NCBI RefSeq assembly: GCF_013520865.1
Contig: NZ_JACDXJ010000001.1
Location: forward strand, 2,037,001-2,101,000
Direction: 5' to 3'
DNA length: 64,000 nucleotides
Source of the DNA: Microvirga mediterraneensis
Lineage (GTDB): Bacteria; Pseudomonadota; Alphaproteobacteria; Rhizobiales; Beijerinckiaceae
Program-made: the position numbers and the translations under genes
Shown here: positions 24,149 to 56,084 of the stretch, in pieces
Layout of the letters: each line of letters begins with the position of its first letter
Position numbering within the stretch: position 1 is the first letter of the stretch
Notes under the pieces: model-generated
Told to the model about the DNA's origin: nothing
Seen by the model: only the letters and a program-made list of their open reading frames with translations
Databases searched by the model: none

Positions 24149-24318
24149 GCAACCGCGCAATCCTTCGACGGCGCGCGGAGCCCAGGACGCCACGGCCGGA
24201 AGCGGAGAAGGTTTCAGGACGGCAGGTTTTGCCGAGGGTTCGACCTGTCGGACGCGGCCCAGCTGTCGCGCAGGCCCGTTACCTTGCGCGCTTTGAATTC
24301 GAATTTTCTTGAAGAGAT

Positions 24319-24394
<76 letters not shown>

Positions 24395-24652
24395 GTCGCC
24401 GAAGCGCTCTTTCGCGGCGCGATGTCCGCTGAAGAGGCCGTGCGTGTAACAAACCGCTTCGCGCCTGTCTAGCCTGTTCGACGAGGTTTTTTGCATCCCG
24501 CCGCAGTTTTTGGCGGGGCGCGGTCGCAGGCGGCCCGCCTGTGACTTTTCGTGCCACTCTCCGGCCCGGAGGAACGGTCAGGCTTTCCGATCATTGACAT
24601 GTGTTGTGTCGAGTGCCGCGCGGAATCGGCGGCAAGCGGGAGGCTGGCCCTC

Positions 24653-26965
24653 ATGAACGATGAGTCGAAGATCCAACCCTATTCCGGTCCCGCAGGTGGA
24701 TGGGGATCTGTCAAATCCGTCGAGAGTATCCTGACGAAGGAAGGAAGGCTCGTCAGCGGCAATGCGATCCTGCTCAAGCAGAACAAGCCTGACGGTTATG
24801 CCTGCGTAAGCTGTGCCTGGGCCAAGCCGGCGAACCCGCATCCTTTCGAGTACTGCGAGAACGGCGCCAAGGCGACGGCATGGGAACTCACCACGAAACG
24901 GGTGACACCCGAGTTCTTTGCCGAGCATCCCGTCTCGGAACTCCGGACCTGGACCGACCACGACCTCGAAGAGGCCGGGCGCCTGACGCATCCCATGCGC
25001 TTCGATGCAGCCTCGGATACCTATGTGCCCGTGAGCTGGGAGGATGCATTCCACGAGATCGGCCGGGAGCTGAAAGGTTTCGATCCGCGAGAGGTGGTGT
25101 TCTACACGTCCGGTCGCGCCTCGCTTGAAACCTCATATATGTGGGCGCTGTTCGCCCGGCTCTATGGCACCAACAACCTGCCGGATTCCTCCAACATGTG
25201 CCACGAGAGCACCTCGGTCGCTCTGCCGAAAAGCATCGGCGTTCCCGTGGGGACCGTGATCCTCGACGATTTCGAGAAGACGGACTGCATCCTGTTCTTC
25301 GGTCAGAACGTCGGCACCAGCAGCCCGCGCATGCTTCATCCGCTCCAGGAGGCATCGAAGCGGGGTGTTCCCATCATCACCTTCAATCCCCTGAAGGAGC
25401 GTGGCCTTGAACGCTTCACCAATCCGCAGGCGCCGACCGAGATGCTGACGGGTTCGGAAACCCGCATCTCGTCGCAATATCATCAGGTGAAGATCGGCGG
25501 CGACATAGCGGCGCTCATGGGAATGGCCAAGGCCCTGATCGAGGCCGACGACCGCGCCCGCGAGGCCGGCGGCAAGCCGGTGCTCGATCATGCCTTCATC
25601 GCCGAGCATACGCACGGGTTCGAAGAGTTTGCCCGGGCGGCCCGGCAGGCATCGTGGACCGAGCTGGAACGGCGCTCCGGCCTGCCGCAGGAGGCGTTTG
25701 AAGCGGCCGCGACCGTCTATTCCCAGGCCAATGCCGCCATGGGCATCTACGGCATGGGGCTGACCCAGCACAAGGCCGGCGTCGAGAACGTGCAGATGCT
25801 TGTCAATCTGCTCCTCCTGCGCGGGAATATCGGCAAGCCGGGCGCCGGTATCTGCCCGGTGCGCGGCCATTCCAACGTGCAGGGGCAGCGCACGGTCGGG
25901 ATCTCGGAGAAGCCCGAGCTTGTGCCCCTCGACAAGCTCAAGGAGCAATACGGCTTCGAACCGCCACGCTGGAAGGGCCTCACGACGGTCGAGACCTGCG
26001 AAGCGATCATCAAGGGCGAAGTGAAGGCCTTCGTCGCGCTCGGCGGAAACTTTGTGCGGGCTGTGCCGGAGACTGCCGCCATGGAGGAGGCTTGGACACG
26101 CCTGCGCCTGTCCGTGCAGATCTCGACCAAACTCAATCGCAATCACCTCATTCCCGGTGAGATCTCCTACATCCTGCCATGCCTCGGACGCATCGAGATC
26201 GACGAGCAGGAAACCGGACCTCAGGCCGTATCCATCGAGGATTCGACCGCTTGCATTCATGGCTCCAAGGGGATTGCCAAGCCGGCAAGTTCCGACCTGC
26301 TCTCGGAGCCGCGCATCGTTGCGGAAATTGCTAAGGCAACCCTGCCGGCAAACGACAAGGTCCCCTGGGACGAGTGGGTAGCCGATTATGCCCTCGTGCG
26401 CGACGCGATCGAGGAAACCTATCCGGAAGACTTCCGTGGTTTCAACGAGCGCATGTGGCAGCCGGGAGGCTTTCACCGTCCCATCGCGGCCCGCGAGAGA
26501 AAATGGAAAACCGAAACGGGCAAGGCGAACTTCACGACCCCCAAGAGCCTGGAAGTGGATCTCGGGATTGCGGAGCAGAATTCCGAGATCCTCAAGCTCA
26601 TGACGTTGCGCTCCAACGATCAGTTCAACACGACGGTTTACGGCTATCATGACAGGTTCAGGGGCGTGCGCGGCACGCGCATGGTCCTCTTCATGAACAG
26701 CAATGACATCGCTCGTTTGAACCTGGCAGAAGGCGATCTCGTGACACTGACGACCGCTGTCGACGACGGTGTGATGCGTCAGGTGCAAGGCTTGCGCGTC
26801 ACATCCTACGACATTCCCGAGGGTTGCTGCGGCGCCTATTATCCGGAATGCAATCCGCTGATCCCCGTCTGGCATCACGCGGATGAAAGTAAGGTGCCGG
26901 CGGCAAAGTCCATTCCGATCCGGATCACCTTGATGCAGCAACAACAGCCGGAGGCGGCGGAATAA
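24653..26965 (+). CDS. FdhF/YdeP-family molybdopterin oxidoreductase
   Basis: A 770-residue member of the YdeP branch of the formate dehydrogenase/nitrate reductase superfamily. It has the YdeP-type N-terminal motif DGYACVSCAWAKP and a likely molybdenum-ligand Cys183 in SNMCHESTSVAL. Later blocks are FFGQNVGTSSPR, RGNIGKPGAGICPVRGHSNVQG and the C-terminal dinucleotide-binding region (LRSNDQFNTTVYGYHDRFRG). No signal peptide is seen, so it is probably cytoplasmic. Its substrate is unknown; E. coli YdeP is tied to acid resistance. It precedes actA by 147 bases on the same strand; a functional link is inference. The ATG at 24653 is preferred over upstream starts because it follows GGGAGG and gives the family length. 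Confidence 0.88.
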   Translation: MNDESKIQPYSGPAGGWGSVKSVESILTKEGRLVSGNAILLKQNKPDGYACVSCAWAKPANPHPFEYCENGAKATAWELTTKRVTPEFFAEHPVSELRTWTDHDLEEAGRLTHPMRFDAASDTYVPVSWEDAFHEIGRELKGFDPREVVFYTSGRASLETSYMWALFARLYGTNNLPDSSNMCHESTSVALPKSIGVPVGTVILDDFEKTDCILFFGQNVGTSSPRMLHPLQEASKRGVPIITFNPLKERGLERFTNPQAPTEMLTGSETRISSQYHQVKIGGDIAALMGMAKALIEADDRAREAGGKPVLDHAFIAEHTHGFEEFARAARQASWTELERRSGLPQEAFEAAATVYSQANAAMGIYGMGLTQHKAGVENVQMLVNLLLLRGNIGKPGAGICPVRGHSNVQGQRTVGISEKPELVPLDKLKEQYGFEPPRWKGLTTVETCEAIIKGEVKAFVALGGNFVRAVPETAAMEEAWTRLRLSVQISTKLNRNHLIPGEISYILPCLGRIEIDEQETGPQAVSIEDSTACIHGSKGIAKPASSDLLSEPRIVAEIAKATLPANDKVPWDEWVADYALVRDAIEETYPEDFRGFNERMWQPGGFHRPIAARERKWKTETGKANFTTPKSLEVDLGIAEQNSEILKLMTLRSNDQFNTTVYGYHDRFRGVRGTRMVLFMNSNDIARLNLAEGDLVTLTTAVDDGVMRQVQGLRVTSYDIPEGCCGAYYPECNPLIPVWHHADESKVPAAKSIPIRITLMQQQQPEAAE

Positions 26966-27112
26966 CTGCCAGTTTCAACCCTGACATTCGTTGCGAACGC
27001 ATCGAGCGTCGGACGCCCTGAGGGAACGAAGCTGCGCTGAACCGATTGTGTCAACAGCGAAGCTTCATCTCAGGCACATTGCCTGACCAGCAAAGGGTGT
27101 GCGGCACAGGCA

Positions 27113-27763
27113 ATGGCGCAGCTCTTCTCACCGGCGGCCACCACTCTGTTTAGGGTAGTGATCGTGCTCCTCGGCCTGGGCGTCGTCGCAGCGGGTGCGA
27201 TCGCCTTTGTCTGGGCGCGCTCAGACAGCACGTGGAATGTGGGCAAGCCCGCGCCGCAGCCAGTCCCGTTCCGGCACGATCTCCACAGCGGATCGCTCGG
27301 CATCGATTGCCGCTACTGCCATTCCACCGTGGAGCGCGCAGCGGATGCGGGCATGCCGTCCGCCCAGACCTGCATGTCGTGCCATTCGCAGGTGTGGGTC
27401 GGCGCAAGCGTGCTGGAACCTGTCCGGTCGAGCTTTCTCCTCGGGCAGCCGATCACGTGGACATCCGTCCATCGCCTGCCCGATTACGCGTATTTCAACC
27501 ACGCCGCTCATGTGACCAAGGGAGTGGCCTGCGAGACCTGCCACGGCCGCGTGGACCAGATGCCGAAGACGGTGAAGACCCAGACCATGTCCATGGGATG
27601 GTGTCTCGATTGCCATCGTGATCCGACACCTCATCTTCGGCCGCGTGAAGCGGTGTTCTCGACGGGATACGAGCCGCACGGCAAGGACCTGCCGGAGGAT
27701 GTGCGGATGTTCTATCAGGAGGCCTCCCGGCGCCTCACCAGCTGCAGCACATGCCACCGGTAG
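27113..27763 (+). CDS. actA: ActA, pentaheme cytochrome c of alternative complex III
   Basis: ACIII is a quinol:electron-acceptor oxidoreductase unrelated to bc1. The 216-residue protein has one N-terminal membrane anchor (TTLFRVVIVLLGLGVVAAGA) and five heme motifs, CRYCH, CMSCH, CETCH, CLDCH and CSTCH, in the periplasmic part. The count and the anchor match ActA of known ACIII. The next five genes are ActB to ActF in the usual order, which fixes the assignment. The CSTCH motif is only three residues from the C-terminus. Confidence 0.95.
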   Translation: MAQLFSPAATTLFRVVIVLLGLGVVAAGAIAFVWARSDSTWNVGKPAPQPVPFRHDLHSGSLGIDCRYCHSTVERAADAGMPSAQTCMSCHSQVWVGASVLEPVRSSFLLGQPITWTSVHRLPDYAYFNHAAHVTKGVACETCHGRVDQMPKTVKTQTMSMGWCLDCHRDPTPHLRPREAVFSTGYEPHGKDLPEDVRMFYQEASRRLTSCSTCHR

Positions 27764-30681
27764 ACGCAATGCGTGAGGAAGCATTACTCGATCTCGAAGC
27801 CGTGAAGGCCCGTCTCGCAAAAGAGGAAGGGCCACGGCTGTGGCGCAGCCTCGAAGAGCTGGCCGATCTGCCGGAGATCCGCCGTTATGTGGAGGCCGAG
27901 TTCCCGGACATCGTGCAGGCCTCCTCCATCGACCGGCGAACCTTGCTCAGGCTCATGGGGGCGTCCTTCGCCCTGGGAGGACTTGCCGCCTGCAACGGCA
28001 GCGGGGCTGAAAAGAACGCCCCGCTTCTGTCGCAGAGCCGCGATATGCCAGGCTATACGCCTGGCGTTCCGGTCACCATCGCCACATCGCTGCCATTGAA
28101 CGGTTACGGCCGGGGCGTCCTGGTGAAGGCCCAGGAGGGGCGGCCGATCAAGATCGAAGGAAACCCGCTGCATCCGGCGAGCCTCGGCGCAACGGACGTG
28201 TTCGCCCAGGCCGAGATCCTTTCCCTTTACGATCCCGATCGCTCCGAAGCCCCTCTGCAGAATGGCTCGCCAAGAAGCTGGGAGGAATTCACGCGCTTCA
28301 TCCGCCCCGTGCGCAACGAGCTCGTCGTCGGTGAGGGGCGGGGCCTGCACATCCTCATGCCGCCGACCTCGTCGCCGACCTTGATCCGGCTGGTGGCGCA
28401 GGTGCGGCAACTCTTTCCCTTGGCGCAATGGCACATGTTCTCGCCCGTCGACGACGACAGCAGGCGAACCGCCGCGACGGCCGCATTCGGGCGGGATCTG
28501 GACCTCGTCTACGATCTGACCCAGGCGGATGTCGTCGTCACCGTGGGCGGCGATCTCTTCGCCGAGGAGGCGGGGCACCTGCGCTACGCAGCCGATTATC
28601 AGGCGCGGCGGAGGATGCAGGATCGGGCGCTGCCTCGTCTCTTCGCCGTCGAGACCAGGCCCAGCCTCGTGGGAGCCCGTGCGGACGAGCGCCTTCCTCT
28701 GCGGCCCCGGGATGTCGAAGCCTTCGTACAGACGCTTGCAGTCGCCCTGGGAGCAGGAACTGCGCCGGTCGGCGCGCCGCATCCCGCCGTGACGAAGCTC
28801 GCGGACGACCTGCGCCGCGCTGGTTCCGGCGGCTTGGTCGTGGCAGGGCGCGAGCAGCCGGCCCGGATTCATAGGCTCGTCCATGCGATCAATGCCCAGA
28901 TCGGCGCCTTCGGAACGACGGTCCGCGCCATCGAGCCGGTCAGGCCGGTGGCAGGCGATATGGGCTCATTGGCCGATCTGGCTCGGGCTATTGAAGCCGG
29001 TGAGGCCTCGCGTCTTCTGGTTCTCGGGGGGAATCCGGTCTACGCCGCGCCTGCCGATATCGATCTGGCGACGCTCGTCAGGCGGGTGCCCCTGGCGCTG
29101 CATCTGGGCCAGCATCGGGACGAGACGGCCATGGTATGCCACTGGCATGTCCCGGAAGCTCATCCTCTCGAGAGCTGGGGCGACCTGCGGGCCTTCGACG
29201 GGACGGTGGGCCTGCGGCAGCCTGCAACGATGCCGCTCAAGCCAGGATTGAGCGCCGAGGAGTTCCTCGGCCTCATGGCGGGGCAGAACCTGGACGGGCG
29301 GGGGCTCGTTCAGGCCACATGGCGGGAGACCTGGGGAGACGGGTTCGAGGAGCGCTGGGCGCGCGCGCTCGAGGACGGCGTGGTCGAGGGTTCGGCGTCG
29401 CCGGCGGTCGCGTTGACCGGGCGGTTCGATGTGACAGCTGAAATGGAAGCTCCTACCACATCGGTTGGCATCGATGTGGTATTCGCTCCCGATCCGTCCG
29501 TCTGGGACGGCTCCTATGCCAACAACGGCTGGCTGCAGGAACTGCCGAGGCCTCTGACGAAGCAGGTCTGGGGCAACGCGGTTCTCATCGGACCGGAGAC
29601 CGCCTCCCTGTTCGGGTTGACGTCGGGGGATGCGGTCGACCTGACGGTCGAGGGGCGGGTGGTCCGCGCGCCGGTCTGGGTCATGCCGGGGCATGCGCCG
29701 GGCTCCGTGACCCTGAGCCTCGGCTATGGCCGCCGGCAGGCCGGCAGGATCGGCAACGGCATCGGGTTCGATGCCTATGCGGTGCGGCCCTCCCACCGGC
29801 CCTGGATCGCTTCGGGCGAGATCAGGAAGGCTGGTGAAAAAATCCCGGTGATCTCGACGCAGCAGCACCATTCGCTCCAGGGCCGCGACATCGTGCGCGT
29901 GGTCGCGTCCGACGAGGAAGCCGTCGAGGCGGCGGCGGAGCAGCCCTCGCTCTATCCGGACTGGTCCTACGAGGGGCATGCCTGGGGCATGGCCATCGAT
30001 CTCGATGCCTGCATCGGCTGCAACGCCTGCGTCATCGCGTGCCAGGCCGAGAACAACATCGCGGTCGTCGGGCCGGAGGAGGTGGCGCGGGGGCGCGAGA
30101 TGCATTGGCTGCGGGTCGATCGCTACCACGCCGGGGACCCGGTCAATCCCGATACGTATTTCCAGCCCGTGCCCTGCATGCATTGCGAGAAGGCGCCCTG
30201 CGAGGTGGTCTGCCCGGTCAATGCGACGGTGCATTCGGCCGAAGGGCTCAACGACATGGTCTACAACCGCTGCATCGGCACCCGGACCTGCTCGAACAAT
30301 TGTCCCTACAAGGTCCGTCGCTTCAACTTCCTCGATTACCAGGGCACGGATTACACCGCCTCGCCCGATGCCATGAATCCGCAGGTGACGGTCCGGGATC
30401 GCGGCGTCATGGAGAAATGCACCTATTGCGTCCAGCGCATCGGCGCGGCTCGGGCGGACGCGCGGATCGAGGACAGGAGCCTGCGCGACGGCGAAATCGC
30501 GACGGCCTGCCAGCAGGCCTGCCCGACGCAGGCCATCGTGTTCGGCGACGTGAACGATCCCGACAGCGCCGTGAGCCGGCTCAAGGGAAGCCCGCGCAAC
30601 TACGCCCTGCTCGGCACGCTGAACACGCGGCCGCGCACGACCTATCTCGCGCGTATCGAACCGTCCTCCGAGAACGGATAG
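27751..30681 (+). CDS. actB: ActB, molybdopterin-oxidoreductase-like/Fe-S subunit of alternative complex III
   Basis: The 976-residue protein joins a molybdopterin oxidoreductase-like region (about 90-730) with a ferredoxin-type region (about 745-950). The latter shows Cys clusters CIGCNACVIAC, CMHCEKAPCEVVCP, CIGTRTCSNNCP and CTYCVQR...CQQACP, consistent with several Fe-S clusters. In studied ACIII the first domain binds no molybdenum. An extended N-terminus (about 60 residues) is followed by DRRTLLRLMG and a lipobox-like LAAC, fitting the extended Tat-type start of this family with a possible lipid anchor. The start is uncertain: ATG 27751 overlaps actA, ATG 27769 just follows its stop. Confidence 0.95.
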   Translation: MPPVDAMREEALLDLEAVKARLAKEEGPRLWRSLEELADLPEIRRYVEAEFPDIVQASSIDRRTLLRLMGASFALGGLAACNGSGAEKNAPLLSQSRDMPGYTPGVPVTIATSLPLNGYGRGVLVKAQEGRPIKIEGNPLHPASLGATDVFAQAEILSLYDPDRSEAPLQNGSPRSWEEFTRFIRPVRNELVVGEGRGLHILMPPTSSPTLIRLVAQVRQLFPLAQWHMFSPVDDDSRRTAATAAFGRDLDLVYDLTQADVVVTVGGDLFAEEAGHLRYAADYQARRRMQDRALPRLFAVETRPSLVGARADERLPLRPRDVEAFVQTLAVALGAGTAPVGAPHPAVTKLADDLRRAGSGGLVVAGREQPARIHRLVHAINAQIGAFGTTVRAIEPVRPVAGDMGSLADLARAIEAGEASRLLVLGGNPVYAAPADIDLATLVRRVPLALHLGQHRDETAMVCHWHVPEAHPLESWGDLRAFDGTVGLRQPATMPLKPGLSAEEFLGLMAGQNLDGRGLVQATWRETWGDGFEERWARALEDGVVEGSASPAVALTGRFDVTAEMEAPTTSVGIDVVFAPDPSVWDGSYANNGWLQELPRPLTKQVWGNAVLIGPETASLFGLTSGDAVDLTVEGRVVRAPVWVMPGHAPGSVTLSLGYGRRQAGRIGNGIGFDAYAVRPSHRPWIASGEIRKAGEKIPVISTQQHHSLQGRDIVRVVASDEEAVEAAAEQPSLYPDWSYEGHAWGMAIDLDACIGCNACVIACQAENNIAVVGPEEVARGREMHWLRVDRYHAGDPVNPDTYFQPVPCMHCEKAPCEVVCPVNATVHSAEGLNDMVYNRCIGTRTCSNNCPYKVRRFNFLDYQGTDYTASPDAMNPQVTVRDRGVMEKCTYCVQRIGAARADARIEDRSLRDGEIATACQQACPTQAIVFGDVNDPDSAVSRLKGSPRNYALLGTLNTRPRTTYLARIEPSSENG

Positions 30682-30685
30682 CCGC

Positions 30686-31999
30686 ATGACCAGCGAGGCC
30701 CAGGCCGTCACGAGAACCGTCGCGGAAGTCCCGCTCGCCCGCCGCTTCGGCGTATTCTGGTGGGGCGCCCTCCTGGCCTCGGGTGCGCTCGTGCTGCTGC
30801 TCGGCTACACCCTGGTTTCGGTCACGCTCGTGGGCGTCGGAGTCTGGGGCATCAACATCCCGTTCGTCTGGGGCTTCGACCTGATCAACTACGCCTGGTG
30901 GATCGGCATCGCCAACGGCGCGAGCCTCTTCGCGGCCATCCTGGTGCTGCGCCGCCACGATCTGCGCACGGCGGTCAATCGATTCGCGGAAGGCGTGGCG
31001 TTCTTCGCCGTCATCTGCGCGGGGATCTTCCCGATCATCCATCTCGGGCGCCCCTGGCTGTTCTACTGGGTGTTTCCGTATCCGGCGACCTTCCAGGTCT
31101 GGCCGCAGTTCCGCAGCACCCTGACCTGGGACTTCTGGGCGATCAGCACCCATGCAATCGTGACCAGCCTGCTCTGGTATGTGGGCCTCATTCCCGACCT
31201 CGCGACCCTGCGCGACCGAGCCCGCAGCAGGACGGTCAAGCGCCTCTACGGCGTCTTCGCACTCGGCTGGCGCGGATCTATCCGCGATTGGGCCTATCAT
31301 CAGCGCGCCTATCGCCTCGTCGCGATCCTGGTGCTGCCCCTCATCCTCATCATGCAGAGCACGGTGGCGTTCGAGTTCGCCGTGACCCTGGTGCCCGACT
31401 GGCACGAGACGCGCCAGCCGCTCCACTTCGTCGCCACGGGCCTCGCACAGGGATTGTCCATCGTGCTCCTGGTCGCCGTGCTGCTGCGCTGGGGCCTACG
31501 CCTGGGACCGTATATCGACGAGGGCGACATCGACCTCCTGGGCAGGCTCGTCCTCGCGAGCGCCCTCGTGTCGGCCTATCTCTATGTGGACGAGATCGTC
31601 GCGGCGCTCCTCGCGGACGGAAACGCCCAGGAGGCCACCTTCAACCGCCTGACGGGCGATTACGCCGGGCTCTACTGGACGGCCATCGTCTACAGCATCC
31701 TGATCCCGCAGCTCCTCTGGTTCAAGGCCGCGCGCCGGAGCACGATCGCGTGCGTCTTCGTCGGTCTCTCCATTGGCGTCGGCATCTGGTTCGACCGCTT
31801 CTCGATCATCGTCGGCGGCCTCCAGACCGATTACCTGCCGTCGATCTGGCGCACCTACAGCCTGACTCTCGCGGAGACGGGGCTGTTCCTGGGAACCATC
31901 GGGCTGTTCGCGGCGCTCCTGCTGCTCTTCGTGCGCTTCCTGCCCGTGGTCTCGATGTTCGAGACCCGCCATGACGAACACGAGGAGAAATCCTCATGA
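30686..31999 (+). CDS. actC: ActC, NrfD/PsrC-like quinol-binding membrane subunit of ACIII
   Basis: A 437-residue integral membrane protein of the NrfD/PsrC family, with about ten predicted helices. Recognisable parts are VWGINIPFVWGFDLINYAWW and IPIIHLGRPWLFYWVF-like sequence (FPIIHLGRPWLFYW), then PQFRSTLTWDFWAISTH. Such subunits bind the quinol and pass electrons to ActB. It starts 4 bases after the actB stop and overlaps actD by ATGA. Its length and flanks fit ActC rather than ActF. Confidence 0.94.
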   Translation: MTSEAQAVTRTVAEVPLARRFGVFWWGALLASGALVLLLGYTLVSVTLVGVGVWGINIPFVWGFDLINYAWWIGIANGASLFAAILVLRRHDLRTAVNRFAEGVAFFAVICAGIFPIIHLGRPWLFYWVFPYPATFQVWPQFRSTLTWDFWAISTHAIVTSLLWYVGLIPDLATLRDRARSRTVKRLYGVFALGWRGSIRDWAYHQRAYRLVAILVLPLILIMQSTVAFEFAVTLVPDWHETRQPLHFVATGLAQGLSIVLLVAVLLRWGLRLGPYIDEGDIDLLGRLVLASALVSAYLYVDEIVAALLADGNAQEATFNRLTGDYAGLYWTAIVYSILIPQLLWFKAARRSTIACVFVGLSIGVGIWFDRFSIIVGGLQTDYLPSIWRTYSLTLAETGLFLGTIGLFAALLLLFVRFLPVVSMFETRHDEHEEKSS

Positions 32000-32532
32000 C
32001 GCGGCGCCCTTACGGCATTATGGCCGAGTTCCGGACACCGGATGCCCTCATCGACGCCGTCAGGGCGACGAGACGCGCGGGCTTCACACGGATCGATGCG
32101 TTCAGTCCCTTTCCGCTCCCGGACCTCGCCGACGAGCTCGGCATCCGCACCAGGATCATCCCGTGGATCGCGTTCGTGGCCGCGCTCATCGGCGCGGGCA
32201 TCCAATACGGTTCGCAATACTGGATGAACGCCGTCGATTATCCCCTGAACGTCGGCGGGCGCCCCCTCGACAGCTGGCCGACCTTCATCCCCTCGACGCT
32301 GATCGTCGCCATCCTCTGGGCCGGGGCAGCGACCCTGCTCGGCCTGCTCGTGATCCTGCGGCTGCCCCGGCTCCATCATCCGGTCTTCTCCGTGCACGGC
32401 TTCGAGCGGGTCACCAACGACCGCTTCTTCCTCTGCGTCCGCAGCGAGGATCCATTGTTCGACCTTGGAGCCACACGGACATTCCTGGAAGGGCTGTCGC
32501 CGCAGGTGGTGCGGGAGGTTCCATGCGACTAG
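31996..32532 (+). CDS. actD: ActD, DUF3341 subunit of ACIII
   Basis: A 178-residue DUF3341 protein with two membrane helices (IIPWIAFVAALIGAGIQYG and FIPSTLIVAILWAGAATLLG). The N-terminal soluble part begins YGIMAEFRTPDALIDAVRAT and FTRIDAFSPFPLPDL. DUF3341 is the usual ActD subunit of ACIII, placed between ActC and ActE. Its own function is structural or unsettled. It overlaps the actC stop by 4 bases and actE by 10. Confidence 0.94.
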   Translation: MTRRPYGIMAEFRTPDALIDAVRATRRAGFTRIDAFSPFPLPDLADELGIRTRIIPWIAFVAALIGAGIQYGSQYWMNAVDYPLNVGGRPLDSWPTFIPSTLIVAILWAGAATLLGLLVILRLPRLHHPVFSVHGFERVTNDRFFLCVRSEDPLFDLGATRTFLEGLSPQVVREVPCD

Positions 32533-33020
32533 CGCTCGCTCTCATCGCGGCCGGGCTTCTTGCTGCCTGCGACAGCGGCACCGAGGAGCGCGATGCCGTA
32601 GCATCAACCCGCACGGTCCAGCGGCCTTATCTCCCCATTCCTCCGGGCGTCGTCCCGCAGGGAGCGGCGGCACGAGAGGCGGCGCTTGCACCGCCCGGAC
32701 CGGAGGTGACACGAGAGCTCCTGGCGCGCGGCGAGGAACGTTTCCGCGCCTTCTGCACCCCGTGTCACGGGGCGGGCGGGCGCGGCGACGGAACGATCGT
32801 CTCACGCGGTTTCCCGCCGCCGCCCTCCTATCACGAGGAGCGGCTGCGCTCCCTTGCGCCTGCGCAGATCGTCCAGGTGATCACTCACGGAAAGGGGCGG
32901 ATGTTCCCTTACGCGGATCGCGTTCCGCCCAAGGAAAGATGGGCCATCGCCCACTATGTGAAGGATCTGCAGGCGCGGGGAACGGGAGCGGCTACCGACC
33001 AGGGGGCGGCAAGGCCATGA
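32523..33020 (+). CDS. actE: ActE, monoheme cytochrome c lipoprotein of ACIII
   Basis: A 165-residue protein with a lipoprotein signal (MRLALALIAAGLLAAC, Cys at residue 16), a linker rich in Pro and Ala, and one cytochrome c domain with heme motif CTPCH. The distal Met is probably in KGRMFPYADRV. Short Pro-rich PPPPSYHEERL precedes the heme loop. It lies between ActD and ActF as in other ACIII clusters. The start overlaps the actD end by 10 bases, and its stop overlaps actF (ATGA). Confidence 0.95.
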   Translation: MRLALALIAAGLLAACDSGTEERDAVASTRTVQRPYLPIPPGVVPQGAAAREAALAPPGPEVTRELLARGEERFRAFCTPCHGAGGRGDGTIVSRGFPPPPSYHEERLRSLAPAQIVQVITHGKGRMFPYADRVPPKERWAIAHYVKDLQARGTGAATDQGAARP

Positions 33021-33967
33021 GCACGATGGAGGTCCTCTACATCGTGTTCGTCGGGCTGACGGGATTGGCGATGGGCTCTCTCGTCGTGCTCATGCTCGGC
33101 CACCTCATGAGCGAGCATTGGCTGGCCCCGGTGCGGAGCGAGATCGAGGCGGCCGCCCTCACGCTGCCGCTGCTTCTCCTTCTCGGAATCCCGCTCGCCT
33201 TCGGGCTCGAACAGGTTTTTCCCTGGGCCGGTGGGTCGGGGGACCTGCCGCCCCTGCGGGCGGCGTTCCTAAGCCCGGCCTTCTATCTGCTGAGAAGCGT
33301 GATCTATCTGGCGGTCTGCGTCGCCTTGGCGTTCTGGCTGATCCGGACCCGTGACGTGCGCCGCGCGAGCGCCATCGGGTTGGCCTGCCTGATCCCCATC
33401 ATGAGCCTGTCGGCCTATGATTGGGTCCTGTCGCGCGAGCCGCATTGGTGGTCGAGCCTGTTCGGATTGGCCTTCGGCCTGAGCGAGGCGCTCGCGGCTC
33501 TCTCCATTGCCATTCTCATAGCCCTGCTCAAGGTCGAACCGGCCTCGCCGGTGCGCATGAAGAGCCTGGAGCGGGCGCTGCTGACCCTGGCGCTGCTCTC
33601 TGTCTGGACATGGTTCGCGCAATTCCTGATCGTCTGGCTCGCCAACCTACCGCAGGGCGCGGAATGGTATGCCAGGCGCTCGGACCCTCAGAGCCTCGCG
33701 CTCGTGGCCGTTTCATATGGCCTGATGCTGGCCGCCATCCTGGTGCTGGTGCCCTCGGGCGTGAGCCGCATCGCCATGATCGTCGGAAGCGCGCTCGCCC
33801 TGCTGCATCACGCAACCCATTTCGTCTGGATCCTCCAACCGCAGGTCGATCCGTCCTGGATCGACCTGGGGCTCATGGCGGGTCTCGTGGGCCTCTGGGG
33901 CGTCGCTTTCACGATCGTGATGAGGTTCCGGCCCACTTACGCGGAAGAGGCCGCGGCGGAGCCTTAA
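33017..33967 (+). CDS. actF: ActF, second NrfD-like membrane subunit of ACIII
   Basis: A 316-residue membrane protein with roughly eight to ten predicted helices, related to ActC but shorter. Marks are the helix GLTGLAMGSLVVLMLGHLMS and, later, CLIPIMSLSAYDWVLSREPH followed by WWSSLFGLAFGLSEALAALS, a pattern seen in ActF proteins (YDW...SREPHWWSS). It ends convergent with the cytochrome c gene on the other strand with a 4-base overlap. It completes a full ABCDEF set. No ActG-like short subunit is visible directly after it. Confidence 0.93.
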   Translation: MSTMEVLYIVFVGLTGLAMGSLVVLMLGHLMSEHWLAPVRSEIEAAALTLPLLLLLGIPLAFGLEQVFPWAGGSGDLPPLRAAFLSPAFYLLRSVIYLAVCVALAFWLIRTRDVRRASAIGLACLIPIMSLSAYDWVLSREPHWWSSLFGLAFGLSEALAALSIAILIALLKVEPASPVRMKSLERALLTLALLSVWTWFAQFLIVWLANLPQGAEWYARRSDPQSLALVAVSYGLMLAAILVLVPSGVSRIAMIVGSALALLHHATHFVWILQPQVDPSWIDLGLMAGLVGLWGVAFTIVMRFRPTYAEEAAAEP

Positions 33968-34509
33968 CTTTTTACGTCGGGATTGGCGGCCTGATGCGGA
34001 ACGATACGGCGCGTGCGGGGCTCCGTCTCCGAAGGCCGAGGCGCCGGTTTCGGGAGATCCGCCGTCGTTTCCCCATGCCCACGGAGCGGGAGCGGCGGAT
34101 CGGGAGGATAAACCGGGTTCTCGCCAGCCCCGAGGGTGTAGAGGTAGCTCGCGACATGGCGGGCTTCGGCTTCCGTCAGGCCCTGCGCCGGCATGCCCGT
34201 TTGCGGCTTGAGCGCCACGGGATCGACCAGCCATGCGATCAGGTTCTGCGGCGTGTTCGGGAGAAAGCCCGCGAGCAGATGCTGCTGCGCATAATCCCTC
34301 AGTTCCGGGCCGACCTTGCCACGGGCGCCTCGCACGCCGCCGATCGTGTGGCAGGTGCCGCAGCCATAGGCCTGGATCAGCGCCCGGCCGCGACCGGGAT
34401 CAGCGCCCACGATGGTCAAAGCGGCCGCATGGTCCTGCTGGTCGCCGCAGGCAGGCAACCCGGCCAGGGCCGGGACAATGGCGATGCGCAAAAGAGCTTT
34501 CCTGATCAT
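33964..34509 (-). CDS. Monoheme cytochrome c lipoprotein, inverted within the ACIII-caa3 cluster
   Basis: A 181-residue protein with a signal ending PACGD (lipobox L-P-A-C), one heme motif CGTCH, TGMPAQ with the probable distal Met, and a Pro-rich C-terminal tail (PPDPPLPL...). It lies opposite to the flanking actF and coxB genes. It diverges from coxB across about 170 bases and converges on actF. It may carry electrons between ACIII and the oxidase. The frame extends upstream to 34605, but the ATG at 34509 starts the signal peptide. It is not a standard ACIII subunit. Confidence 0.88.
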   Translation of the reverse strand: MIRKALLRIAIVPALAGLPACGDQQDHAAALTIVGADPGRGRALIQAYGCGTCHTIGGVRGARGKVGPELRDYAQQHLLAGFLPNTPQNLIAWLVDPVALKPQTGMPAQGLTEAEARHVASYLYTLGAGENPVYPPDPPLPLRGHGETTADLPKPAPRPSETEPRTRRIVPHQAANPDVKS

Positions 34510-34682
34510 GAGTTCCGCTTGAGGAGGTCCGACGAGGCAATCGGCGGGCGCGTGCTCCGTTCCTGCTCGGGCGTCACATGATGAGCCGCTTCGCTCGAAG
34601 GCCACCTGCGGGATGTTTTGCGGGAACCAAGTCTCACGGCCAAGCTTATCCGTTCAATGCATGCAAGACCCATGTAGGGCGG

Positions 34683-35708
34683 ATGGATCTGGAAACGACA
34701 CCGCACGGCCTCCCTTGGCGGCGCACGACAACGTTGCGTGCGGCGGTCCTCGCGTGCGCGCTGTCGCTTGCGGGCTGCAGCGGCGTGCAATCGGCCCTCG
34801 ACCCGGCGGGCGGCGATGCTCTCCGGATCTACTGGCTTACCGTGATCATGACGGTGGGCGGAACGCTGATCTTCCTCCTCGTGACCGGGCTTCTGCTCTA
34901 TGCGATTTTCGCCCCGCCCGAGCGCCGGGCCTGGCTCGGCGGGCGCAGGACCATCGTGGTCGGCGGGCTCGCCTTTCCGATCGTCGTCCTGTCCGGGCTT
35001 CTGCCCTACGGGCTGATCGTCATGCGCGACACGGATGTGCCGATGCCGGGGGCGCTTCAGGTCGAGGTGATCGGCGAGCAATATTGGTGGCGGGTGAGAT
35101 ACCCGGAGGAGGGCGGCAGACCTGAGTTCGCCACGGCCAACGAACTCGTCGTTCCCGTCGGCCAGCCGGTGACGGTGGCGGTGACAGCCGCCGACGTGAT
35201 CCACAGCTTCTGGATCCCGAACCTCGGCGGCAAGATCGACATGATCCCCGGACGCATCAACCGCCTCAACTTCACGGCGGAGCGGCCCGGCATCTATCGT
35301 GGAGTCTGTGCCGAGTTCTGCGGCGACCAACATGCCCGCATGGCCTTCGACGTGGTGGCGTTGGAGCCGGCGGCCTTCGGTGCCTGGAGAGCCGCACAGG
35401 CGAAACCCGCGCGGGAGCCCGACATCCCGTTTCTCACGCGCGGCCGCGAGCTGTTCCGCGCGGCAGGCTGCGGATCCTGCCATGTGGTGCGCGGAACCGA
35501 GGCCCAGGGGGCGTTCGGGCCCGACCTGACCCATGTGGGAAGCCGCCGCACCATCGGGGCAGGGCAGTTTCCCAACAATGTCGGCACGCTCGCCGGCTGG
35601 ATCGCCAACACGCAGCACATCAAGCCGGGCGTGCGGATGCCGTCCTATGGCTCGTTCACGGGTGAGGACCTTCGGGCCTTGGCCTCTTATCTGGAGAGCC
35701 TGAAATGA
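34683..35708 (+). CDS. coxB: Cytochrome c oxidase subunit II with fused cytochrome c domain (caa3 type)
   Basis: A 341-residue subunit II. A lipoprotein-like start (ALSLAGCSG) is followed by two membrane helices. The CuA domain has VIHSFWIPNLGGKID and C-A-E-F-C-G-D-Q-H-A-R-M near residue 210, with the full CuA ligand set. The C-terminal part is a cytochrome c domain with CGSCH at about residue 262 and Met in VRMPSYG, which makes this a caa3 oxidase. The frame is open upstream to 34578, but the ATG at 34683 gives the usual short N-terminus. Its stop overlaps the next gene (ATGA). Confidence 0.95.
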   Translation: MDLETTPHGLPWRRTTTLRAAVLACALSLAGCSGVQSALDPAGGDALRIYWLTVIMTVGGTLIFLLVTGLLLYAIFAPPERRAWLGGRRTIVVGGLAFPIVVLSGLLPYGLIVMRDTDVPMPGALQVEVIGEQYWWRVRYPEEGGRPEFATANELVVPVGQPVTVAVTAADVIHSFWIPNLGGKIDMIPGRINRLNFTAERPGIYRGVCAEFCGDQHARMAFDVVALEPAAFGAWRAAQAKPAREPDIPFLTRGRELFRAAGCGSCHVVRGTEAQGAFGPDLTHVGSRRTIGAGQFPNNVGTLAGWIANTQHIKPGVRMPSYGSFTGEDLRALASYLESLK

Positions 35709-38272
35709 ACGCGCCCGAGCGCTCCGAAGCCTTCCATGAGCGAGAGCCCGATTTCCCCAATCCGCTGCCGCGTCCCGCGGGCGAGCTCGACGCGCTCGAG
35801 AAGGCCTGGAAGGCTCCGCGCGGCCTCAGCTTCATCACGGCCGTGAACAACACCTATGTGGGCTTGTGGTATGTCGGCACGGCGTTCCTGTTCTTCATCC
35901 TGGCGGGCATCCTCTCGCTGATCATGCGGGTGCAGCTGGCGGCGCCGGAGAGCGACTTCGTCGGGCACGATCTCTACAACCAGCTCTTCACCATGCACGG
36001 CACGGTGATGATGTTCCTCTTCGCCGTGCCGGCCGTGGAGGCGGCGAGCGTCTATCTCCTGCCGAACATGCAGGCGGCCCGCGACCTGCCGTTCCCGCGC
36101 CTGTCGGCCTATGCCTTCTGGGCCTATTTCGTCGGCGGCCTCGTGTTCTTCTGCACGATCTTCTTCGGCCTCGCGCCCAATGGCGGCTGGTTCATGTATC
36201 CGCCGCTCACGGGCTCCAAGTACTCGCCCGCCGACAATGCGGATTGGTGGCTTCTCGGCATCGGCTTCATCGAGATCTCGGCCATCGCGGGCGCCATCGA
36301 GATCATCGTCGGCGTGATGAAGACCCGCGCGGTCGGCATGAGCCTCGACAGGATGCCGGTCTATTCCTGGGCCATGCTCGTCTTCGCCGTCATGATCGTC
36401 ATCGGCTTCCCGGCAATCATTCTCGGCACCCTGCTGCTCGAGATGGAGCGCGCCTTCGACTGGCCGTTCTTCATCGCCGAGAGGGGCGGAGATCCGCTGT
36501 TGTGGCAGCACCTGTTCTGGTTCTTCGGCCACCCGGAGGTCTACATCATCTTCCTGCCTGCGACCGGCATGGTGTCGATGATCGTACCCGCCATGGCGCA
36601 GACCCCGCTCATCGGCTACCGCCTTGTCGTGCTCGCCCTTGTGGCCACCGGCTTTCTCTCCTTCGGCCTCTGGGTCCATCACATGTTCGCCACGGGCTTG
36701 CCGAAGATGTCCCTGAGCTTCTTCTCCGCCGCCAGCACGGCGGTGGCGGTGCCGAGCGGCATCCAGGTCTTCGCCTGGATCGCCACAATCGCGTCCGGAC
36801 GCATGAAGCTGACGACGCCGTCGCTCTTCATCATCGGCTTTCTGTTCATCTTCACCCTAGGTGGGCTCACGGGCGTGATGGTCGCCATGGCGCCCTTCGA
36901 CTGGCAGGCGCACGACAGCTATTTCGTGGTGGCGCACCTCCATTACGTGCTCATCGGCGGCATGGTGTTCCCGCTCTTCGCGGCCTTCTATTACTGGGTG
37001 CCCGTGGCGAGCAAACATGCGCTGTCGGAGCGGGTCGGGCGCTGGGTGTTCGGTCTCATGTTCGTCGGCGTCAACGTGACCTTCCTGCCGATGCACGTCA
37101 CCGGCCTCATCGGCATGCCCCGGCGCGTCTACACCTATCCGGTCGGTATGGGGTGGGACGCGCTCAACCTCGTGTCCACCATCGGGGCCTTCATGATCGC
37201 CGCCGGGATCGCGCTCTTCATCGGCGACTTCGCGCGCAGGTTCAGGATCGCGCGGGACGAGAACGCCGGCAACGTGTGGAACGCCGGCACGCTCGAATGG
37301 CTGCCGAACGCCAACTACAACACGCGCAGCATCCCCATCGTGACCAGCCGCGAACCGCTCTGGGATCAGCCCGGGCTGTCGCAGGATGTGCAGGACGGAC
37401 GCTATTATCTGCCCGGAACGGCCACCGGCGGGCGCGAGACGCTCGTGACGAGCCCGTTCGATGCAAGCCCGCAATACATCCTGCAGGTTCCCGGCCCCGG
37501 CTGGCAGCCCCTGCTTGCCGCCGTGTTCACGGCCGCGTTCTTCCTGCTCCTCACCGTCAAGATGGTGCTCCTGTCGGCGATATGCGGCGTGCTCGCGATC
37601 ATCTGCGTGATCTGGTGGCTCTGGGAGACCGATCCGGGTCCTGTCCGTCCGCCCGTCGATATCGGAGGCGGGTTCGTCGTTCCCGTCTATGCGACCGGAT
37701 CCATGAACCATTCCTGGTGGGCGATGATCGTGCTGATGGTCGTGGCCGGCATGGTCTTCACCTGCCTGATCTTTTCCTATCTGTTCCTATGGCTCGTGAA
37801 CCCCGCCGCGTGGCCGCCGCAGGGCACCGCATTGCCTGAAGGGTTCAGCTCCCTCGTCTCGGGCGCTCTCTATATCGTCAGCGCCGTCCTGATCGCCTAT
37901 GCCAGCCGGACGCTGCGGGGCGAGGATCGCCGCAGTCCTCGATCCGTGCCGGTGCTGATCGCCGTGGCGCTGCTGCTCGTCGGCGGAGCCTCCGCGACGG
38001 ATCTCTGGGCGCAATGGCAAACGGGCCTGAGCCCTTCTGCCCATGCCTACGGGGCGGCCGTCTACGCCATCGTGTCCCTGCAGATCTTCTTCGTGCTGAC
38101 GACGCTGATCATGGGCCTCTACACCATCGCCCGCTGGTTCGCCGGCAGGCTCGACAGCGTCCGCCGCACGACCTTCGACAACATGATGCTGTTCTGGTTC
38201 TACACGATCGGCCAGGGTCTGGTCGGGCTCGCGGTCGTCCACGGATTCCCGCGCCTGACGGGAGGCGTCTAG
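35705..38272 (+). CDS. Cytochrome c oxidase subunit I-III fusion
   Basis: An 855-residue fusion. The first about 540 residues are subunit I: heme and CuB motifs WFFGHPEVYI (about 273-282, with the A1-type Glu), WVHHMFATG (CuB His-His), and HDSYFVVAHLHYVLIGG (heme a3 and a His ligands). From about 580 on, after a linker, comes a subunit III-like region of several helices (TGSMNHSWWAMIVLMVVAGM, LVSGALYIVSA, MMLFWFYTIGQGLVG). coxA-coxC fusions of this kind are known in ACIII-linked caa3 oxidases. It follows coxB directly by a 4-base overlap. Confidence 0.95.
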   Translation: MNAPERSEAFHEREPDFPNPLPRPAGELDALEKAWKAPRGLSFITAVNNTYVGLWYVGTAFLFFILAGILSLIMRVQLAAPESDFVGHDLYNQLFTMHGTVMMFLFAVPAVEAASVYLLPNMQAARDLPFPRLSAYAFWAYFVGGLVFFCTIFFGLAPNGGWFMYPPLTGSKYSPADNADWWLLGIGFIEISAIAGAIEIIVGVMKTRAVGMSLDRMPVYSWAMLVFAVMIVIGFPAIILGTLLLEMERAFDWPFFIAERGGDPLLWQHLFWFFGHPEVYIIFLPATGMVSMIVPAMAQTPLIGYRLVVLALVATGFLSFGLWVHHMFATGLPKMSLSFFSAASTAVAVPSGIQVFAWIATIASGRMKLTTPSLFIIGFLFIFTLGGLTGVMVAMAPFDWQAHDSYFVVAHLHYVLIGGMVFPLFAAFYYWVPVASKHALSERVGRWVFGLMFVGVNVTFLPMHVTGLIGMPRRVYTYPVGMGWDALNLVSTIGAFMIAAGIALFIGDFARRFRIARDENAGNVWNAGTLEWLPNANYNTRSIPIVTSREPLWDQPGLSQDVQDGRYYLPGTATGGRETLVTSPFDASPQYILQVPGPGWQPLLAAVFTAAFFLLLTVKMVLLSAICGVLAIICVIWWLWETDPGPVRPPVDIGGGFVVPVYATGSMNHSWWAMIVLMVVAGMVFTCLIFSYLFLWLVNPAAWPPQGTALPEGFSSLVSGALYIVSAVLIAYASRTLRGEDRRSPRSVPVLIAVALLLVGGASATDLWAQWQTGLSPSAHAYGAAVYAIVSLQIFFVLTTLIMGLYTIARWFAGRLDSVRRTTFDNMMLFWFYTIGQGLVGLAVVHGFPRLTGGV

Positions 38273-38273
38273 A

Positions 38274-38630
38274 ATGAGCGGGCGGCGGACGGGACAGGTT
38301 CTCCTGATGCTGGCCGGCCTCATCGCCTGGGCGGTCCAGTTCACGATCATTTATGCCGTGACGTCCACGCTATGTGGCCGCGAATGGGCCGATGCGACGA
38401 TCCTCGGTGTGGGAAGCGTCCACGCCGTTGTCCTGCTCACGACGATCGCGGCCCTTTGCGTCGCGGCCTTGTCGCTGCTCCAGTCACGGCGTGTCCATGG
38501 GAGGCTGGGGGAGACGGCTGCCGCCCCCGACCGCTTCATGAGCCAGGCGGGATCGCTGATCAGCGGCCTCTCGCTCGTCGTCATTCTCTGGCAGGGCATT
38601 CCTGCCTTCATCCTTCCGGCCTGCGCGTGA
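38274..38630 (+). CDS. Small membrane protein of the caa3 cluster
   Basis: A 118-residue protein with three predicted helices (QVLLMLAGLIAWAVQFTIIYAV, ILGVGSVHAVVLLTTIAALCVAALSLL and AGSLISGLSLVVILWQGIPAFIL). I do not recognise the family. It begins one base after the oxidase fusion gene and is very probably in the same operon. A short membrane subunit or an oxidase assembly factor is possible. It ends 25 bases before the DUF421 gene. Confidence 0.72.
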   Translation: MSGRRTGQVLLMLAGLIAWAVQFTIIYAVTSTLCGREWADATILGVGSVHAVVLLTTIAALCVAALSLLQSRRVHGRLGETAAAPDRFMSQAGSLISGLSLVVILWQGIPAFILPACA

Positions 38631-38655
38631 TGCGCTCGGTAAACGAGGTCCAACC

Positions 38656-39183
38656 ATGATCGACTGGCAGGAGATATTCATACCCTCGCACTCGGTCCTG
38701 GAGACCATCGTGCGCGGGACGATGATCTACATCATGCTGTTCCTGATCCTGCGCTTCCTGCTCAAGCGTCAGACCGGCGTGATCGGTGTCGCCGACCTCC
38801 TCGTGATCGTCCTCATCGCCGATGCGTCGCAGAACGCGATGGCGAGCGAGTACAAATCGGTCACCGAGGGGATAGTCCTCGTTCTGACCATCGTGTTCTG
38901 GAATTACGCCATCGACTGGCTCGGCTTCCACTTCCCCGCCTTCCAGCGCATCACCCGACCGCCGCCGCTCCTGCTGATCGAGAACGGCAAGATGCTGCCC
39001 AGGAACATGCGCCAGGAGATGATCACGATCGATGAACTCAAAAGCCAGCTGCGGGAGCAGGGCATCGAGCACTGCTCCGAGGTGAAGCGCGCCTATATCG
39101 AGGGCGACGGGACGATCAGCATCATCCGCAAGGATAAGGACGATGTCGGAGGAAAGACCGAGACCATGAAGGGAGTTGTCTGA
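38656..39183 (+). CDS. DUF421/YetF-family membrane protein
   Basis: A 175-residue protein with three N-terminal helices (TMIYIMLFLILRFLL, LLVIVLIADAS, IVLVLTIVFWNYAIDWL) and a C-terminal soluble domain with the YetF-like core: LLLIENGKMLPRNMRQEMIT and IDELKSQLREQGI. DUF421 proteins have unknown function. It is the last gene of the respiratory string, 25 bases after a small membrane-protein gene, and ends 4 bases before rhaI on the other strand. A link with the oxidase is positional only. Confidence 0.87.
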   Translation: MIDWQEIFIPSHSVLETIVRGTMIYIMLFLILRFLLKRQTGVIGVADLLVIVLIADASQNAMASEYKSVTEGIVLVLTIVFWNYAIDWLGFHFPAFQRITRPPPLLLIENGKMLPRNMRQEMITIDELKSQLREQGIEHCSEVKRAYIEGDGTISIIRKDKDDVGGKTETMKGVV

Positions 39184-52492: not shown

Positions 52493-52828
52493 TCAGGGTC
52501 CGGGTCCGAAGAAGATCATCCGTGACAGCAATGTGTAATCCGCCTCGAGCGTCATGATCGCGACGAACACGAGCACGGCGCTGATCGGCACCAGAATGGC
52601 ATAGACCAGGGACAGGCGCTCCCAGGCCATATGCATGAAGATCGCCACGATGAGGCCGGCCTTCAGTAGCATGAAGAGGACGATCAGGGCGTATCGGAGG
52701 AGGCCCTGGACCTGGAAGTAATCGACGAAGTAGGAGCAGGCGCTCAGGACGAACAGCCAGGCCCACACAACCAGATAGAGCTTGATCGGGTGTTGTTGCC
52801 CCTGCGCGTGTGCGGTTGCCTGTGCCAT
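52493..52828 (-). CDS. Cytochrome oxidase subunit IV (CtaF/CyoD-like)
   Basis: A 111-residue protein with three membrane helices (LYLVVWAWLFVLSACSYFV, LRYALIVLFMLLKAGLIVAI, LVYAILVPISAVLVFVAIMT). The His-x-His-Met-type segment AIFMHMAWE is like the prokaryotic subunit IV proteins. It is the last gene of a five-gene oxidase operon on the minus strand, 10 bases after the second subunit III. The ATG at 52828 gives the usual length; longer upstream frame runs across subunit III. Confidence 0.82.
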   Translation of the reverse strand: MAQATAHAQGQQHPIKLYLVVWAWLFVLSACSYFVDYFQVQGLLRYALIVLFMLLKAGLIVAIFMHMAWERLSLVYAILVPISAVLVFVAIMTLEADYTLLSRMIFFGPGP

Positions 52829-52838
52829 GGCGCATCCC

Positions 52839-53561: not shown

Positions 53562-53575
53562 GAGCAGAACTCCTA

Positions 53576-56048: not shown

Positions 56049-56084
56049 CAGGATTCTCTCCCCGGCTGCTTCCTCTATCTCCGT

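Follow-up and report, generated by a model that had tools for sequence, protein, structure and literature searches.

The occurrence of an alternative complex III (ACIII) beside a terminal oxidase has a precedent in alphaproteobacteria, where the arrangement is already described as cytochrome oxidase (COX) operon type a-I with an A2-class oxidase (PMC6431628). In the A2 class a tyrosine replaces the D-channel glutamate (PMC3084760). Here we examine a gene block of Microvirga mediterraneensis (positions 24653..39183) in which an ACIII is likewise joined to an oxidase. The DNA analysed, referred to as the window, is 64,000 nucleotides long and spans positions 2,037,001 to 2,101,000 of contig NZ_JACDXJ010000001.1. 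We consider it likely that the block encodes a quinol-to-oxygen branch by-passing the bc1 complex, that it is a hybrid of an ACIII and an A1-class caa3 cassette, and that it is old in Microvirga.

An A1-class oxidase beside the ACIII

The motif of the window's subunit I reads FGHPEVY, which places it in the A1 class, and not YSHPAVY. The protein is encoded on the plus strand (35705..38272) as a fused caa3 subunit I-III of 855 aa, which scores 466 bits with PF00115 and aligns with 2yev_A over 43-832. It is preceded by subunit II (34683..35708, plus strand, with an earlier start possible at 34578), in which a CuA domain (TIGR02866, 169 bits) is fused to a heme c domain (PF00034). The features of an A1 caa3 oxidase are found together in the window, namely the D-channel glutamate (HPEVY), the CuA site, and heme c in subunit II.

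ActD (PF11821) was detected in 35 of 48 Microvirga genomes at 36 places, all of which were compared at 17-20 kb each; genome G034 holds an additional ActB fragment at a contig edge. Thirty-two of these places belong to the window's ACIII lineage, hereafter type 1, their ActB being 58-100% identical; the remaining four fall outside it, with ActB at 44-47% and canonical oxidase genes. These four loci (L120, L122, L152, and L154) represent two further lineages, and type 1 and another lineage occur together in one genome, G018. Searching 397 family genomes added four type-1 loci from two other genera (L216-L219), and 50 further ACIII loci of the family were taken in, ActB fragments from this search being left out. 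An exact-motif census covered 182 loci: the 36 of type 1 (32 from Microvirga plus 4) and 146 others (4 + 50 + 16 + 76), the last 76 drawn from the best 80 of a contig scan listing. The A1 motif was present in 34 of the 36 type-1 loci and no motif in two. Among the others, which hold near-duplicates (two Azospirillum brasilense and two Methylobacterium radiotolerans plasmids), the A2 motif was found in 115 of 146, the A1 motif alone in none, and no motif in 31, a number that includes contigs too short to reach the oxidase. L152 has the A2 motif together with a separate A1 COX1.

In a COX1 tree of 88 rows, made from a chosen subset of 97 loci of which 10 yielded no row, the 61 COX1 linked to ACIII of other lineages, proteobacterial and from further phyla, fall into a single group (SH-aLRT 100). 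The 19 type-1 COX1 form a separate group (SH-aLRT 99), which lies beside free-standing caa3 oxidases of Bosea (96), Rhizobium, and Sinorhizobium; a long-branch warning applies in this tree to the genome's other oxidases. The window's subunit I is 62-64% identical to three free-standing caa3 oxidases and 33-37% identical to 16 ACIII-linked plasmid ones, all of which carry the A2 motif YSHPAVY.

Directly after subunit I-III lies a gene for a 118-residue membrane protein with three hydrophobic helices (38274..38630, plus strand). It is found close behind I-III in 31 of the 32 type-1 Microvirga loci, with 3-33 positions between matches. Because probable homologues also follow I-III in the free-standing caa3 cassettes of Rhizobium Q54 (31%) and Bosea (29%), the protein is probably the usual companion of a fused subunit I-III, and a small oxidase subunit or assembly partner is its probable role. 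It gave no Pfam or NCBIfam COX4 match, and its fold is a generic three-helix bundle. Since subunit I groups with free-standing rhizobial cassettes, which carry a probable homologue of this small protein, the block is, on these comparisons, a hybrid of an ACIII and a caa3 cassette of the free-standing A1 kind. The neighbour of a type-1 ACIII would then be a cassette of subunit II, fused I-III, and small membrane protein, usually with CtaG. A literature search found no pairing of ACIII with an A1 caa3 oxidase in alphaproteobacteria in the titles and abstract openings among the matches listed.

The ACIII and its quinol site

ActA-D and ActF each match chains of four solved ACIII (6f0k, 6lod, 8k9e, and 6btm, which we take to be those of Rhodothermus marinus, Roseiflexus, Chloroflexus, and Flavobacterium), and the resemblance is therefore not due to chance. 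ActA (27113..27763, plus strand, as are the act genes that follow) is a pentaheme cytochrome c subunit with five CXXCH motifs (8k9e_A 2e-58, 6f0k_A 1e-54). ActB (27751..30681), a fused molybdopterin-enzyme-like and iron-sulfur (Fe-S) subunit with 15 cysteines after residue 740, scores highest with 8k9e_B (939 bits), followed by 6lod_B (858), 6f0k_B (800), and 6btm_B (441). It had no molybdopterin-domain match over the Pfam cut-off, and the nearest named ActB, at 91% identity, is that of Microvirga lotononidis. ActC (30686..31999), the predicted NrfD-like quinol-oxidising membrane subunit, matches NrfD (PF03916, 65 bits) and 6f0k_C (7e-94). It is followed by ActD (31996..32532; PF11821, 180 bits), by the monoheme cytochrome c ActE (32523..33020; PF13442, one CXXCH), an apparent lipoprotein judged by eye (LLAACDS), and by ActF (33017..33967), a second NrfD-like subunit of 316 aa that has no Pfam match and was recognised through the ActF chains of solved ACIII (6lod_F 1e-20, 6f0k_F 1e-19). 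The window thereby holds the features of an ACIII: a multiheme ActA, an ActB with molybdopterin-like and Fe-S parts, an NrfD-like ActC with quinol-site residues, and ActD, ActE, and ActF.

All genes of the block are present with intact reading frames, and the view that it encodes a complete ACIII-caa3 module is supported by these matches. A sequence-only reading made before this analysis had listed YdeP, actA-F, an inverted cytochrome c, caa3 subunits II and I-III, a three-helix protein, and DUF421, and the list was confirmed gene by gene. The 4-base overlaps it described are seen at three same-strand pairs (ActC/ActD, ActE/ActF, and subunit II/subunit I-III) and at the convergent ActF/cytochrome c pair, but ActB/ActC and YdeP/ActA are separated by gaps of 4 and 147 bases.

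His119 and Asp149 of ActC align with the quinol-site His139 and Asp169 of R. marinus, and the quinol-site residues W62, P116, H119, L146, and D149 are kept in all 36 type-1 loci. In R. marinus numbering, six of nine pocket residues (His139, Asp169, Trp82, Pro136, Leu166, and Val250) are kept in 36/36 type-1 loci, and the changes are Ile86 to Leu, Phe89 to Tyr, and Asp253 to Glu. A published model gives Glu122 of ActD, Ser245 of ActC, and Tyr284 of ActF as 98-100% conserved and assigns them a part in linking the oxidation of quinol with the movement of protons (PMC5928083); this is a proposed mechanism and not a defining feature of ACIII. Every type-1 locus (36/36) has Ile, Val, or Met in place of Ser245 and Ile in place of Glu122 (Ile103 in the window's ActD). 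Outside type 1, Ser245 is kept in 75 of 84 proteobacterial loci and in 56 of 56 loci from further phyla; for Glu122 the corresponding numbers are 57 of 83 and 48 of 51. The position of Tyr284 is probably Trp197 in the window's ActF, where the alignment shifts by two, and 7 of the 14 residues of the ActC cytoplasmic half-channel differ in type 1.

Perhaps the ACIII was re-wired when its partner changed from A2 to A1 and the proposed coupling link was lost, so that it would act as an uncoupled or differently coupled feeder for an A1 oxidase that does the pumping. We regard this as doubtful, as type 1 has replacements at 33 of 98 near-invariant columns of ActC and eight other proteobacterial loci are also without both the Ser and the Glu. 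A 2026 paper, which cites ACIII structure papers among others, states that proton pumping by such complexes is yet unconfirmed experimentally (PMC13059093).

Accessory and neighbouring genes

The interval between ActF and subunit II contains only an inverted monoheme cytochrome c gene (33964..34509, minus strand, with an earlier start possible at 34605; PF00034, one CXXCH), whose product is by eye an apparent lipoprotein and, at 36-38%, is closer to the subunit II heme domain of caa3 oxidases than to the cytochrome c of free-standing cassettes. Every gene of the block was assigned, and none encodes SCO. The cytochrome c gene shows the same inversion in all 32 type-1 Microvirga loci and is a constant part of the module in this genus. 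Across these loci, actA, C, D, E, and F are likewise present in 32, and subunit II, I-III, and the 118-residue protein in 31, with L131 as the exception; ctaG follows with 21, YdeP with 16, DUF421 with 14, and fdhD with 11, the sequence of L144 extending only 1.8 kb upstream of actA. The sequence-only reading had suggested four non-standard genes as possible new accessory parts. These four are not alike: the cytochrome c is constant, the 118-residue protein is probably an ordinary companion of I-III, and both YdeP and DUF421 are optional. That reading mentioned neither the divergent class of the oxidase nor the missing fdhD and ctaG.

The fdhD and ctaG places were located by comparing the window DNA with L136, L148, L129, and L140. 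The fdhD place (26966..26995) holds 28 bp in the window against ~785 bp in L136, and the ctaG place (34577..34606) 28 bp against ~880 bp. Both genes are missing from the window, L130, L134, and L138 where other relatives carry them. L121 and L142 likewise have a YdeP without an adjoining fdhD (six of 16 loci in all), and a further seven loci are without ctaG (L121, L131, L133, L135, L144, L151, and L153, the last with a ctaG downstream instead), so that these losses are recurrent. The genome retains a further FdhD (44% identity) and two further CtaG (34-35%), which may supply the missing functions.

YdeP (24653..26965, plus strand; motif NMCHE, Cys183) scores above the cut-off of the FdhF/YdeP subfamily of molybdopterin oxidoreductases (TIGR01701, 1030 vs 582 bits) and under that of the E. 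coli YdeP equivalog NF007406 (826 vs 1473 bits); it is a probable soluble formate dehydrogenase-like enzyme. Its presence beside an ACIII appears to be a recurring yet optional neighbourhood. In the other ACIII lineages it was near three of 146 loci, namely one on a B. japonicum plasmid, L259, and L242, where the gene is split in two; the count leaves out L253, which has a match of 25%. It was not seen in the 76 contig-scan loci or the four other-lineage Microvirga loci.

The last gene of the block (38656..39183, plus strand) encodes a DUF421/YetF-domain membrane protein (PF04239, 65 bits) and is, like YdeP(-FdhD), an optional and loosely attached neighbour of the module. A YetF-domain gene also stands after a different ACIII module, on the opposite strand, in two Methylobacterium radiotolerans plasmids (L168:20479-20961 and L185:20479-20961). 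In addition, genes for PQQ, GMC/gluconate, or sorbosone dehydrogenases occur close to several Rhizobiales plasmid modules (L167, L175, L177, and L181), which suggests ACIII modules in sugar-oxidation islands. Further along the window, on the minus strand (52493-56900), is a second oxidase operon, in which subunit II and a subunit I with the A1 motif are accompanied by a pair of subunit III-like genes and by COX4_pro; it resembles the described type a-III with doubled COX3 (PMC6431628).

Inheritance of the block

Type-1 ActB forms one branch of 21 rows (SH-aLRT 100), which unites Microvirga with two further genera of the same family. For the 21 of 32 genomes with both regions, a tree of leuA-region DNA shares 8 of 18 splits with ActB and 9 with ActC, while the ActB tree shares 10 splits with ActC and 9 with I-III; 20 shuffles of the ActB-leuA comparison gave 0 or 1 shared splits. 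One clear conflict was found, in G015 (L137, L282), whose ActB and leuA region fall in different subclades and which is a candidate for exchange within Microvirga.

The block is situated next to leuA on the main contig, a location common to the window's subclade, and its neighbour genes differ between most Microvirga loci. Thirty leuA loci (of 48, window included) show tRNA-Lys on the leuA strand in 15, inverted in 8, and none nearby in 7, and YdeP follows in seven of the eight with the inverted tRNA. In the window, a segment of ~185 bp with tRNA-Lys(CTT) just upstream of the block (24303-24490) is inverted relative to 15 of the 30 loci. Given the differing neighbours, the tRNA-Lys/leuA patterns, and the agreement of ActB with leuA, the block seems to have been carried through chromosomal rearrangements and inherited downward rather than freshly imported, and we judge it to be old and largely vertically inherited within Microvirga.

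Weighing the alternatives

The sequence-only reading had seen the block as one co-transferred respiratory module. The module is indeed complete, and a recent arrival as a unit in the window strain would fit with the plasmid location of ACIII modules in Rhizobiales (three of the plasmids inspected were typed conjugative), with flanking genes that vary between most Microvirga loci, with the G015 conflict, and with the placement of two other genera among Microvirga in the ActB tree. We nevertheless consider it very improbable, and for this strain largely refuted: ActD occurs in most genomes of the genus (35/48), the ActB tree agrees with leuA to about the same degree as with other genes of its operon, and the site beside leuA is shared by the subclade. 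Within the genus, ActB thus lies in a long-resident alphaproteobacterial clade, the very placement that the earlier reading had set in advance against its transfer idea; an older transfer may still stand. A different proposal would make YdeP-FdhD and ACIII-caa3 one formate-to-oxygen chain with YdeP as a true functional part. Deletion work in P. putida supports a role of FdhF/YdeP in formate oxidation (PMC10308882); YdeP is upstream in 16 of the 32 loci, and a separate YdeP-ACIII linkage exists on the B. japonicum conjugative plasmid, there with fdhD, and in the family loci L259 and L242. Yet half of the 32 loci are without YdeP, the gene is close by in so few (3/146) of the other ACIII loci, and six of the 16 YdeP-bearing loci are without the adjoining fdhD. 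This YdeP occurs, at an identity of at least 81%, in 21 of the 45 Microvirga genomes of the family sample: beside ActB in 15 and elsewhere in six, including G042, which has no ACIII. As no quinone-reducing partner for YdeP was seen either, we think a formate chain unlikely.

The A1 oxidase might also be a mere neighbour, with the ACIII feeding soluble cytochrome c and other oxidases. L131 has the ACIII and the inverted cytochrome c, retained despite the missing oxidase, and L218 has the ACIII alone; in 34 of 36 loci, however, the A1 oxidase stays next to the ACIII although Microvirga surroundings change, which leaves the idea rather doubtful. Several observations do count against the hybrid, vertically inherited branch that we prefer. 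L131 and L218 have no oxidase motif nearby, the cassette of L219 is in the opposite orientation, and neither L218 nor L219 yielded the cytochrome c; the ACIII-A1 pairing is thus not obligatory, and these three loci are possible intermediates of a partner swap, or losses. ActB relatives of 57-59% in MAGs named Geminicoccaceae and Hyphomicrobiaceae, which suggest that the type-1 lineage extends further, lie outside the oxidase census. The trees are quick ones (LG+G4 or GTR) made without bootstrap, and agreement between the trees of I-III and the leuA region is limited to 6 of 18 splits. Four ActB rows from the two other genera group with Microvirga row L153 (92) and L131 falls outside, which hints at some exchange between genera. 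Finally, the genome has one bc1-type cytochrome b, three bd subunit I, and five further COX1 homologues (three CtaD-type, one CyoB, and one CcoN), so that other partners are possible and the present branch is one of several in the cell.

In the hybrid branch, quinol would be oxidised at ActC. Ubiquinol is the presumed quinol donor in this cell. Electrons would pass through the Fe-S clusters of ActB to the hemes of ActA and ActE, and from there, presumably by direct contact between ACIII and oxidase, to the heme c and CuA of subunit II, with the A1-class caa3 oxidase reducing O2 and the whole branch by-passing bc1.

In the loci examined, the ACIII of Proteobacteria and other phyla is paired with one A2 oxidase group. 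A type-1 lineage with a partner of the other class shows that this pairing can be rebuilt, and, if events ran in the order we infer, offers a natural comparison for which surfaces of the ACIII dock an oxidase and how the two complexes couple. The type-1 ACIII is also without residues on which a pumping model rests. The result also corrects the easy reading of a recently imported foreign chain.

Comparison with known systems

The ACIII itself has the subunits ActA-F, the Fe-S ActB, and the quinol-site His and Asp of ActC in common with those of Rhodothermus marinus, Roseiflexus, Chloroflexus, and Flavobacterium. ActA has five hemes in R. marinus and six in F. johnsoniae (PMC8552683); the window's ActA, with five heme sites, is like the former. 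Differences are the shorter ActF (316 aa vs 411-464 aa in the solved complexes) and, relative to R. marinus, the replacement of ActC Ser245 and ActD Glu122 throughout type 1. The YdeP upstream is of the same family as the FdhF/YdeP-FdhD pair of Pseudomonas putida (PP_0256-0257), and fdhD adjoins YdeP in 10 of 16 YdeP-bearing loci, but fdhD is missing beside the window's YdeP and the formate activity there is putative.

COX operon type a-I, found on plasmids of Mesorhizobium, Rhizobium, Nitrobacter, Martelella, Bradyrhizobium, Methylobacterium, and Paraburkholderia, resembles the window block in having actA-F followed by an oxidase and a subunit II with CuA and heme c (61 of 63 such subunit II found). 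The order in ten annotated plasmid loci is actA-F, a small gene, SCO, and then separate subunits II, I, III, and IV, SCO being absent from the two Methylobacterium radiotolerans records; ACIII loci of the family vary, with the oxidase upstream or inverted in some and SCO matched in 20 of 50. In contrast, the window has an A1 and not an A2 oxidase, a fused and not a separate I-III, no SCO, and a cytochrome c (in relatives also ctaG) inverted between ActF and subunit II. The oxidase half finds its likeness in the two annotated free-standing caa3 cassettes of Bosea and Rhizobium Q54, which consist of CtaG, cytochrome c, subunit II, I-III, and a small protein: I-III is 63-64% identical, subunit II 46-49%, and their CtaG is a homologue (30%) of the one in Microvirga relatives. 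The cassette cytochrome c has three CXXCH motifs and the window's one, with no clear BLASTP match between them (E 0.07, 0.2), and Rhizobium Q54 has an exchanger gene between subunit II and I-III. Unlike these two, the window's cassette adjoins an ACIII.

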